64,000 nt of DNA, taken from the NCBI GenBank assembly GCA_019639195.1, contig JAHBSI010000001.1, forward strand, positions 62,001 to 126,000. The letters are read 5' to 3'. A program made the position numbers and the translations under genes. The stretch comes from Acidobacteriota bacterium (lineage in GTDB: Bacteria; Acidobacteriota; Blastocatellia; Pyrinomonadales; Pyrinomonadaceae). This document shows, piece by piece, positions 16,900 to 24,772 of this stretch. Position 1 is the first letter of the stretch. Every line of letters begins with the position of its first letter. The notes beneath the pieces are model-generated. The model was not told where the DNA came from, ran no database searches, and saw only the letters and a list, made by a program, of their open reading frames with translations.

Positions 16900-17060
16900 T
16901 GCTTTTACGCGAAACATCCTATTGTAGGCAGCAGCTTGCAGGACAGGTGGCCCGACTTTTACGGTGACGCGATCGCGCAGGAGTTGCACCTGCTTTCCCT
17001 GTTCATTTGCAAGATGATGTGAATTATCAATCACCGGACGCATCCGGCAACCTTTGAGTG
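16900..17060 (-). ncRNA. Cobalamin riboswitch upstream of btuF
   Basis: On the minus strand the segment reads ACAGGGAAAGCAGGTGCAAC, then TCCTGC, a GCGATCGCGTCACCGT element in the place of the usual GCxxCCxCGCxACxGT, and a B12-box variant AGTCGGGCCACCTGTCC at about 16941-16957. Order and spacing match the cobalamin riboswitch consensus. The 5' arm with GGTTGCCGGATG lies near 17050. The expression platform should lie between 16835 and 16930. I see a CTTGA-ACGC-TCAAG hairpin directly before the btuF ATG but no T-tract, so translational control is again more likely. The element sits between mtgA and btuF and controls the btuFCD transcript independently of btuB. The ends are approximate. Confidence 0.82.
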
Positions 17061-22224: not shown

Positions 22225-23364
22225 CTAAGAATCTCGCTCGAGGGCCGCGAACGCGAGGTCGTGGAACCTCCTTCGCACGGAGTTGATGTTAACGAGCGGG
22301 AGTTCGTGGTGATGCGTGCGGTTGGTAAGCAGGATAAATATTGCCTCTTTGACGGGGTCGATCCAAAGGCTTGTGCCCGTAAACCCAAGATGGCCAAAGC
22401 TTTGCGGCGACAGGCGACTTCCCGCGGTCGATTCCGGAGTGGTCGCCAACTGAAACCCGAAAGAGCGATCTTCGGCCGCACCATCGCCCGTAAACTTTGT
22501 TGTAAACAACCCGCAGCTCTCCGGGCGCAAGAGCGTCGTCGTGTTAGCAAGGAACTGCGAGGCGAGCTCGAACGTCTCTTCCGCGGTCGAAAAGAGCCCG
22601 GCGTGGCCCGCTGCACCGTCCATAAAGTACGCGTTGCCATCGTGAACCTCGCCCCAGATCTGGCCCTTGCGAAGCCATTTATCCGCCCGCTTTCGTGCCT
22701 CGTCGCCGGCAAGATACCCTTCGCTCTCGCAGGTTTCGCGTTCAAACCGATTACCGCGCTCGGATGCCGCAATTCTGTGCCGTAGAGAAGCCGCCGGACG
22801 ATAGCTCGTGTCTTTGAGCCCGAGCGGCCGAAAGATCATTTCAGATGCGGCCTCGTCGATCCGTTTGCCGGTCAGCTTCTCGATAACGAACGCGAGAAGA
22901 ATAAAATTCAGATCGCTGTAAACTACGCCCTGGCCGCTTTTGAGCGGCGTTTCGAGAATGACATCCAATACACCTTCACGGCTGTCCGCGAGTAGATAGA
23001 GCGGACGCCACGCCGGAAGCCCACTCGTATGCGTCGCAAGCTCCAGTATCGTCGTGTCTTTCAGGCCAGTGTCCGAACTTTCAACCAGCACCTCCGCCAA
23101 ACGCGTATCGAGAGCAATTTCGCCGCGATCGACAAAGATCGCCGCAAGCAGCGTCGTTACAAGCACCTTTGTCAGGCTAGCAAGGTCGTAGATCGTGTCG
23201 ATCTTCGCAACTATCAACTCAGGCTCGACGACGGCATTTCCGAGCGGATCCGCATATTTCTGCCCGTCTTTCCGCCCAAAAAGATAGACCGCAGACGGGA
23301 GATCACCCGCCGCGATACGCTCAAGCAGCAAGTCGTTTATATTTTTCTCCTGCAAATAGTCCAT
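22225..23364 (-). CDS. Serine hydrolase, class C beta-lactamase / esterase fold
   Basis: This is a 379-residue member of the beta-lactamase-related family (class C beta-lactamases, D-peptidases, EstB-like esterases). The nucleophile motif SxxK is in YDLASLTKVLVTTLL near residue 64, the Tyr motif is in GVVYSDLNFILLAFV near 145, and the third motif is HLGFTG near 330. There is no clear signal peptide, so a cytoplasmic location is likely, which argues against a classical beta-lactamase. The substrate is unknown. It is 30 nt downstream of the NYN-domain gene and upstream of the VWFA gene, a likely three-gene transcript. Confidence 0.83.
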   Translation of the reverse strand: MDYLQEKNINDLLLERIAAGDLPSAVYLFGRKDGQKYADPLGNAVVEPELIVAKIDTIYDLASLTKVLVTTLLAAIFVDRGEIALDTRLAEVLVESSDTGLKDTTILELATHTSGLPAWRPLYLLADSREGVLDVILETPLKSGQGVVYSDLNFILLAFVIEKLTGKRIDEAASEMIFRPLGLKDTSYRPAASLRHRIAASERGNRFERETCESEGYLAGDEARKRADKWLRKGQIWGEVHDGNAYFMDGAAGHAGLFSTAEETFELASQFLANTTTLLRPESCGLFTTKFTGDGAAEDRSFGFQLATTPESTAGSRLSPQSFGHLGFTGTSLWIDPVKEAIFILLTNRTHHHELPLVNINSVRRRFHDLAFAALERDS

Positions 23365-23394
23365 AAGAGCAGAACACTGCTGCCGGCTTGTCGC

Positions 23395-24018
23395 CTACGG
23401 AAATGCGACTTCCCTCTGTTCATCAGTATGTTCACGCAGTTCTTTCTTCACATATTTATGCCCAAGGGTCGCAAGAATGATTTGGACACCTTCCCGGCGG
23501 GCAAACTTCATTGGTGCTATAAAATCGCTGTCCCCAGTGATAAGGATAATGCGCTCCACGATGCCCTTACTGGCAAGCCAGGCAACATCGAGCCCAATCT
23601 TCATATCGACACCTTTTTGTTTAATGTCGGGAATAATATCGTCAGCTGTGAGCGGACGACCACTCCTTGAAATCTGCCGGACTGCGTCGTGACTCAGCCG
23701 CCAGCCCTGAAAGGCAACTTCGCCTGAACGGAACGCCACATTGTTCGTCTGTTTAAGATCTTCGATCAACCTCAGGTTGTGAGCGTATGTTTTGCGCGCG
23801 GTCATATCTACCTCATTCCCGCTGATGGGATGCTGCAGCTTGAAGCTGCCCGGCGGACAATGGTAGCAATAGATGCGGAATAGCTCCTCCCGCTCACTAT
23901 CAAGGCATTTTAGTGCGAGGTGGTGCAGATCTGGTGCGGCAACATATCTGCCCAGCGATCTGTGGAGCTTGTTGACGGCAAAGCCGAGATCGATCAGAAC
24001 AGCGGTCTTTTTCTTCAT
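23395..24018 (-). CDS. NYN-domain protein (LabA/DUF88-like), putative RNase
   Basis: This is a 207-residue protein with the NYN fold, a PIN-like nuclease domain. The expected acidic residues are visible: Asp in TAVLIDLGFAV near residue 9, Asp in KGVDMKIGLDVAWLA near 127-133, and the diagnostic ITGDSDFIAPMKFAR near 150. A short basic and acidic C-terminal tail follows. NYN proteins in bacteria are thought to cleave or process RNA, though few are characterised. Its promoter region overlaps that of the divergent small-RNA gene at 24093, and that proximity may be functional or simply accidental. Confidence 0.8.
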   Translation of the reverse strand: MKKKTAVLIDLGFAVNKLHRSLGRYVAAPDLHHLALKCLDSEREELFRIYCYHCPPGSFKLQHPISGNEVDMTARKTYAHNLRLIEDLKQTNNVAFRSGEVAFQGWRLSHDAVRQISRSGRPLTADDIIPDIKQKGVDMKIGLDVAWLASKGIVERIILITGDSDFIAPMKFARREGVQIILATLGHKYVKKELREHTDEQREVAFP

Positions 24019-24057
24019 ATTTGGGATGTGGATTGAACTCAGGAGGTCGCTAACGTA

Positions 24058-24086
24058 TTGACATACATGGGTTTCTAGCCTATTAT
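24058..24086 (+). promoter_or_regulatory. Near-consensus promoter of the small RNA
   Basis: TTGACA (24058-24063) and TATTAT (24081-24086) are separated by exactly 17 bases, a near-perfect housekeeping promoter. Transcription would start near 24093. The promoter lies within an imperfectly spaced inverted repeat whose arms, GTATTGA (24056-24062) and TCAATAC (24086-24092), place a TTGATA box on the opposite strand as well, probably the -35 of the divergent NYN gene. Confidence 0.75.
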
Positions 24087-24092
24087 CAATAC

Positions 24093-24170
24093 ATCCGAAC
24101 GCCGCTAGGGCGGCAAATGTTCGAAAGACCTCTGTTCTTGCAAACTATACCGCAAGAGCAGGGGTTTTTC
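24093..24170 (+). ncRNA. Small RNA of about 78 nt, class unknown
   Basis: A stand-alone transcript is predicted between the promoter at 24058-24086 and a terminator at 24129-24169. The 5' hairpin pairs CGAAC (24096-24100) with GTTCG (24119-24123) and GCCGC (24101-24105) with GCGGC (24110-24114), with a TAGG tetraloop and an AAAT bulge. An AAAG linker joins it to the terminator hairpin. There is no start codon or ribosome site inside, so a peptide is unlikely. The downstream gene has its own promoter at 24207-24235, which argues against a simple attenuator. I do not match it to a known sRNA or riboswitch family. Confidence 0.65.
24129..24169 (+). terminator. Intrinsic terminator of the small RNA
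   Basis: A 13-bp stem pairs 24129-24141 (CCTCTGTTCTTGC) with 24152-24164 (GCAAGAGCAGGGG) with two G-U pairs and a 10-nt loop. TTTTT follows at 24165-24169. Confidence 0.8.
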
Positions 24171-24206
24171 ACTTGTCGATCGGTAGCTTTCTAGAGCATC
24201 GGCCAA

Positions 24207-24235
24207 TTGACAGTCGCCGAATATAAAAATACGAT
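24207..24235 (+). promoter_or_regulatory. Predicted promoter of the 24263 gene
   Basis: TTGACA (24207-24212) is followed after 17 bases by TACGAT (24230-24235). The predicted start near 24242 leaves a 20-nt leader that carries the Shine-Dalgarno GGAGG at 24254-24258. Confidence 0.65.
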
Positions 24236-24262: not shown

Positions 24263-24709
24263 TTGGCAAATATGAGCAAAGCTAAATCAGCAAATCTTAT
24301 CCTAAAACTTTACGACCTGCGTCGCGAGGAGACGATGCGGAAGGCCCGCAACTGGGTCTTTACGTTCGCACCAAAGAGTGCGGACGATATTCTAACCACG
24401 ATGATGGATCCGGAAGTCGGAGCATATCTTCGAATGGTCTCGTCGTATTGGGAAATGGCCGCAGCGATGGTGAATCAAGGTGCGATAGACGCCGACCTTT
24501 TCGGCGAAACGAATGGCGAGCATTACATCGTCTATGCGAAGATCGAACCCTTCCTGGCGGACCTTCGTGAAAAAATGGGGTCGCCCGAGGCGTTCAAGAA
24601 CCTTGAGAAGCTGATGGCATCAACTCCCGAGAATACGGCGCGTCTCAAGAAGACCCAGGAGTGGCTTCAGTCATTTGCGGAACAGTCGGCGGCTCAGCAG
24701 GCCGGCTAG
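24263..24709 (+). CDS. Conserved hypothetical protein, all-helical
   Basis: This is a 148-residue soluble protein from TTG 24263 (four bases after GGAGG) or 145 residues from ATG 24272. It is predicted to be mainly alpha-helical, with no signal peptide. The sequence starts basic (KAKSANLILKLYDLRREETMRKARNW), which looks like a short helix-forming N-terminus, and has an acidic middle (GAIDADLFGETNGEHYIVYAKI) and a Gln/Ala-rich end. I recognise no domain. Its strong promoter, clean ribosome-binding site and strong terminator indicate a monocistronic, well-expressed gene. Confidence 0.75.
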   Translation: MANMSKAKSANLILKLYDLRREETMRKARNWVFTFAPKSADDILTTMMDPEVGAYLRMVSSYWEMAAAMVNQGAIDADLFGETNGEHYIVYAKIEPFLADLREKMGSPEAFKNLEKLMASTPENTARLKKTQEWLQSFAEQSAAQQAG

Positions 24710-24731: not shown

Positions 24732-24772
24732 AGCGCAGAGCTTTTTTCAAAAAGCTCTGCGCTCATTTTTTT
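24732..24772 (+). terminator. Intrinsic terminator of the 24263 gene
   Basis: AGCGCAGAGC (24732-24741) pairs with GCTCTGCGCT (24754-24763), extended by a T-run and A-run, and TTTTTTT follows at 24766-24772. It touches the stop codon of the convergent oxidoreductase gene. Confidence 0.85.

Follow-up and report, generated by a model that had tools for sequence, protein, structure and literature searches.

A small structured RNA beside an NYN-family nuclease gene: a candidate mobile nuclease-plus-RNA module in an Acidobacteriota genome

What is the short transcription unit at positions 24093–24170 of this stretch of Acidobacteriota DNA (64,000 nucleotides, hereafter the window): a free-standing small RNA, the leader of the gene that follows it, or part of something larger? 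The best explanation is that it encodes the RNA of a mobile module with two parts, an NYN-family endoribonuclease and a small structured RNA. The unit is built from the following features, all on the + strand.

24058–24086, +: sigma-70-type promoter driving the RNA, TTGACA-17-TATTAT, matching the consensus at 11 of 12 bases
24093–24170, +: small RNA of the NYN-associated class A; fold z-score −6.4; held-out model match at 24092–24120, 28.5 bits
24093–24100, +: conserved single-stranded 5′ segment, AUCCGAAC (alignment A2); AnCCG in every copy
24101–24114, +: hairpin 1, GCCGC-UAGG-GCGGC, conserved and covarying
24096–24123, +: outer stem CGAAC/GUUCG around hairpin 1, with full 5-bp pairing in the window only
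24123–24170, +: terminator hairpin: stem of up to 19 pairs, loop of 10 nt (24142–24151) and TTTTT (24165–24169)

The promoter consists of a −35 element TTGACA (24058–24063), a 17-nt spacer and TATTAT (24081–24086), and no shuffle equalled its score when the 61 nt around it were dinucleotide-shuffled 100 times. Its position predicts an RNA start at about 24093. The segment 24093–24170 folds at −40 kcal/mol, compared with −18.9 ± 3.3 kcal/mol for shuffled sequences (0 of 200 as strong), and forms two hairpins, a small 5′ hairpin and then the terminator hairpin. The terminator was overlooked by a generic terminator scan because that scan takes loops of 3–8 only. A previous sequence-only reading of this DNA had described a near-perfect promoter, two hairpins with a T-tract, and a unit lacking an ORF and belonging to no known family. 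Each of these points was borne out: no ORF of at least 50 aa lies inside the unit, and an Rfam search of the window at E-values up to 10 gave no relevant match to it. A small ORF running across the hairpins (MFERPLF...) has no convincing ribosome site and no counterpart seen in the RNAs of relatives, and was set aside. The promoter is flanked by an inverted repeat, GTATTGA/TCAATAC (24055–24061 and 24086–24092), which could be an operator, a symmetrical divergent promoter or a chance occurrence. Elsewhere in the window, an AdoCbl-II (cobalamin) riboswitch at 16937–17011 on the − strand scored above the Rfam gathering cut-off.

The surroundings of the unit were compared with those in related genomes, which brings in three further features.

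23365–24206 (ends approximate), no strand: insertion with the NYN gene and the RNA, missing from the other genomes of the genus
23395–24018, −: NYN-domain nuclease gene, divergent from the RNA (Pfam NYN, 3.7e-8; PHROG 5783; structure model; PDB 2qip)
24207–24235, +: ancestral DUF4760 promoter, TTGACA-17-TACGAT, conserved in the genus and outside the RNA unit

Of the 41 genomes of the genus searched, 36 contain a match to the DUF4760 gene at 24263, and in 27 of the loci inspected (L019–L045) the close, divergent neighbour of DUF4760 is a beta-lactamase-like gene (22225–23364 in the window). This genus-conserved pair is separated by about 840 bp that are unique to the present genome and contain only the RNA and the divergent NYN nuclease gene. 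The NYN gene has no copy in any other genome of the genus and is found in one other genome among 162 of the class. Since it stands between the beta-lactamase-like and DUF4760 genes in this genome alone within the genus, the stretch from about 23365 to 24206 is best read as an insertion, and the comparison indicates that the RNA gene arrived together with the neighbouring NYN gene. A DNA search for the RNA unit in 98 relatives returned chance matches only, and the RNA is missing from near relatives because it sits in this newly acquired segment.

The DUF4760 promoter begins at 24207, 37 bases past 24170, as the sequence-only reading had noted for a second promoter before the next gene, and the DUF4760 gene is preceded by the same TTGACA...AAAATACA block in the closest relatives. 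This bears on the idea that the unit is a DUF4760 leader, or that its hairpins have arisen by chance and have no function, a reading that we regard as highly improbable. The unit does lie directly upstream of DUF4760 and is not conserved within the genus. However, relatives keep the genus-conserved DUF4760 promoter and have no RNA; with that promoter ancestral and the RNA in the insertion, a role as leader or attenuator of DUF4760 is ruled out and was rejected. Chance hairpins are opposed by the fold z-score and by the held-out model match described below. The earlier judgement in favour of an independent sRNA over an attenuator of the 24263 gene is thus supported; what it missed is that the RNA appears to form a two-part module together with the divergent NYN gene. 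The left edge of the insertion (23365–23372) carries AAGAGCAG, which recurs in the terminator stem (24154–24161), a recurrence that is probably due to chance but could bear on the origin of the insertion. A perfect 14-bp terminator hairpin with a T-tract directly follows the DUF4760 gene (24732–24763, + strand).

The NYN gene lies 74 nt from the RNA. The sole Pfam match of its product is NYN (PF01936; 34.4 bits against a cut-off of 24.2), and the protein belongs to PHROG 5783, a family annotated as of unknown function. It was modelled by AlphaFold with a pLDDT of 94.8, and the best PDB match of the model is the NYN protein 2qip. Asp-10, Asp-138, Asp-144, Asp-163, and Asp-165 are invariant among 18 homologues, and these acidic residues suggest that the protein is an active PIN-like nuclease. 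PADLOC gave weak partial matches only for the family. The homologues span many phyla (80 loci kept) and are also carried by plasmids (164 records, 128 of them predicted to be conjugative), phages, and viral contigs. In the E. coli phage ev099 the gene lies between the repressor and N-like genes, in Proteus phage Brookers it comes after a LexA-like repressor, and in Javan85 it is placed between an XRE regulator and the integrase. Such positions beside repressor genes in temperate phages are often taken by exclusion or defence genes. Many of the homologues have a compact unit upstream that combines a promoter-like stretch with one or two hairpins and a terminator.

In a subset of these loci the NYN gene adjoins the same RNA 5′ domain as in the window (AUCCGnnAC, a 5-bp stem, and a UAGG loop), even where the nucleases are distant homologues. 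This class A domain is made of AUCCG, 1–5 nt, and a 5-bp stem closed by UAGG, usually followed by A; the window element has AnCCG, the 5-bp stem with the UAGG loop, and an adjacent NYN gene. Eighteen copies were found in 16 loci, the window included, from records labelled Rhodothermota, Planctomycetota, Actinomycetota, Bacteroidota, Acidobacteriota, and Pseudomonadota and from one viral contig. The exact pattern was absent from viral contigs, the copy in the viral contig L129 being a variant. The window has one copy, and two loci, L063 and L095, have two in tandem. Several copies have no clear sigma-70 promoter.

A covariance model was built from 16 class A copies, leaving out that of the window (A2, R1). 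Searched against the 64 kb of the window, the model matched 24092–24120 at 28.5 bits (E = 3e-4), with the runner-up at 13.9 bits. Across 637 kb of NYN loci the model gave 13 matches above 30 bits, each of them beside an NYN gene, and nothing else exceeds 15.4 bits; as the 13 are sequences from which the model was built, the informative point is the absence of other matches. Among 396 Acidobacteriota genomes the model gave five matches at E ≤ 0.01, four of them beside NYN genes; the match in genome G370 lies within an aminotransferase gene and was taken as chance. The window's own genome is not listed in that search because 28.5 bits falls just under the genome-scale cut-off.

Four of the five pairs of hairpin 1 are changed on both sides in relatives, and the covariation score of class A is 0.62 compared with 0.24 in shuffles (0 of 500 as high), both figures coming from copies pre-selected for pairing. 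Because the copies had initially been chosen with a pairing requirement, the search was redone with a sequence-only pattern: all five pairs formed in 18 of 20 occurrences upstream of NYN genes and in none of 31 occurrences elsewhere in the loci. The class A element is almost certainly a genuine NYN-linked structured RNA. The sequence-only reading had named compensatory changes in both stems as evidence that would support it; they occur in GCCGC/GCGGC, whereas CGAAC/GTTCG, which is bulged, is fully paired in this genome only and is taken as a local addition. The conservation that it had asked for in relatives is missing within the genus, where the unit is newly acquired, and is found instead in distant NYN loci. 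The same distribution makes it very unlikely that the unit is an independent sRNA that base-pairs with host mRNAs and stands beside the NYN gene by chance. Its own promoter and terminator would suit such an sRNA, but the RNA is conserved beside NYN genes across phyla and not elsewhere, and it is missing from all other genomes of the genus.

A second group of NYN loci carries a different RNA. Class B RNAs are terminator hairpins interrupted by a conserved internal loop, in which GUA[A/C]GC faces GCCGAACC, and compensatory changes were observed in all 13 predicted pairs (40 sequences). The class was detected in 72 NYN loci (E ≤ 0.01), just upstream of the NYN gene and on the same strand; 40 of these sequences built the model, leaving about 32 independent finds. 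The stretches upstream of class B matched a promoter at 9 or more of 12 positions in 36 of 57 cases, compared with 21% of shuffles. The class B model gave only a 12.7-bit chance match elsewhere in the window. Other hairpins are present in further NYN clades (L157–L161, L061/L062, and the phages ev099 and Brookers). RNA class clusters along the NYN tree, with 0 of 500 shuffles as clustered, a signal to which near-copies add. Thus the RNA and the nuclease appear to have co-evolved.

Class B also leads to a known RNA. The class B RNA of locus L079 (2105–2165, + strand) matches the Rfam family RF03535/TEG147 with an E-value of 2e-5 and 33.6 bits, short of the 56.1-bit cut-off, and the Staphylococcus aureus sRNA Teg147 appears to be related to class B. 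Teg147 is among the bona fide expressed sRNAs of strain HG003 (PMC5826253), is reported from a genomic island (PMC3053349), and has an Rfam family (PMC7779021). The class A RNA of the window does not match that family. No TEG147 (RF03535) match was found in the window's genome, and BLAST found no TEG147 in phage DNA.

The arrangement of RNA and gene helps to distinguish between possible modes of action. RNA and NYN gene share a strand in about 14 of the 16 class A loci and are divergent in the window and in L063 (Pseudochryseolinea flava, Bacteroidota). The RNA could in principle be mainly a regulated terminator in the leader of the NYN mRNA, serving autoregulation by NYN or another signal and having no antitoxin role. 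The order promoter-RNA-terminator-NYN on one strand in most relatives, and the placement of the RNA on the NYN strand in all class B loci, are what such a cis leader or attenuator would look like, and the related TEG147 has a cis-regulatory type in Rfam. However, transcription of the RNA runs away from the NYN gene in the window and L063, where it cannot be the leader of that gene, so that attenuation of NYN is impossible there, and the tandem copies of L063 and L095 would be needless for a single regulated terminator. A purely cis-acting role is therefore unlikely. Action in trans is the simplest account of the two divergent loci, where the RNA probably acts in this way, and the divergent order in this genome would count as natural evidence that the RNA can do so.

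A predicted RNase encoded next to a co-evolving structured RNA, on mobile elements and in some cases with tandem RNA copies, has the anatomy of RNA-antitoxin systems of the ToxIN type and of AbiF-RCd22. The pair thus looks like an undescribed nuclease-plus-RNA, toxin-antitoxin-like module; no literature linking NYN with an RNA antitoxin was found in a search that had subscription journals and most preprints outside its scope, and an earlier description is possible. By analogy with those systems, we consider it reasonably probable that the RNA is the antitoxin or inhibitor of the NYN RNase. In the proposed mechanism, the RNA would be transcribed from a promoter of its own as far as its own terminator, and AUCCG(N)AC and the UAGG loop would be the sites at which it binds the NYN protein. 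The bound RNA would restrain the RNase, in the way that ToxN is restrained by ToxI and AbiF by RCd22, and its loss or consumption, for example upon phage infection, would free a putatively toxic nuclease that may serve in defence. In most relatives, where the RNA lies upstream on the same strand, the terminator would limit read-through into the NYN gene. Alternatively, the RNA may be an active part of an NYN ribonucleoprotein, acting as a scaffold, a target mimic, or a guide for the cleavage of foreign RNA. The same linkage and co-evolution data and the location on phages and plasmids would fit a cofactor of this kind, but no variable guide-like stretch was noticed and the RNA is compact and mostly paired, which leaves this role rather improbable.

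The inhibitor reading invites comparison with known RNA-held toxins. The type III systems (ToxIN, CptIN, and TenpIN) likewise have an endoribonuclease gene adjacent to a structured RNA, with some tandem repeats, a terminator between the two, and a mobile distribution, and the NYN module may work like them. The window protein, however, has an NYN fold and is not of the ToxN family, the NYN-linked RNAs have only one or two repeats (one in the window), and their motifs are unrelated. Most relatives have the type III-like order, whereas the window RNA is divergent and not upstream in the NYN transcription unit. A near functional counterpart is the AbiF/Abi_2-RCd22 pair (RF03085), in which a phage-borne toxin gene is adjacent to an ncRNA of about 100 nt that has its own promoter and terminator and a small hairpin motif present once or twice. 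RCd22, from a Clostridioides difficile prophage, has a terminator before abiF and two motif copies, and acts by toxin binding, both in cis and in trans (PMC12373285). The toxin there is Abi_2, which is related to Cas13, rather than NYN; the RNA motifs differ; and in the window RNA and gene are divergent. The window protein has no Abi_2 match in Pfam, and RF03085 has no match in the window at E-values up to 10. In avcID, the AvcI RNA and the AvcD deaminase form a type III-like system reported in phage defence (PMC10511110); an enzyme other than ToxN is again under an RNA antitoxin, a deaminase in that case and a nuclease here. Because the protein family and the RNA motif differ, as does the gene order in the window, the module is not filed under ToxIN, CptIN, TenpIN, or AbiF.

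On balance we lean towards a broader reading, in which the NYN nucleases of PHROG 5783 and their kin in many bacterial phyla, phages, and conjugative plasmids would constitute a new class of toxin or defence module held in check by RNA, with several RNA classes (A, B, and others) that have co-evolved with the nuclease and with the orphan Teg147 related to one of them. If true, this would be a widespread addition to the few known RNA-inhibited toxins, one in which a PIN-like (NYN) nuclease replaces ToxN or Abi_2. It would also offer a possible function for an orphan S. aureus sRNA and for a phage protein family, and would provide tractable members of the module in phages of E. coli and others.

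Several further hairpins were seen at NYN loci. The phages ev099 (L182, 1376–1504) and Brookers (L188, 2348–2498) share a near-identical hairpin, AGCCCAGCCCCGUUCG...AACGGCUCUGGGC, before the NYN gene and directly after the repressor gene, with no class B or Rfam match. Long hairpins lie upstream of the NYN gene in an Acidobacteriota NYN clade (L157–L161), possibly a further RNA class, and a UGAUC(C/A)AAGU-like loop stretch is common to several of its members. In the near-identical loci L122 (4948–5002) and L138 (2948–3002), a second strong class B RNA (50.4 bits) is located downstream of the NYN gene.
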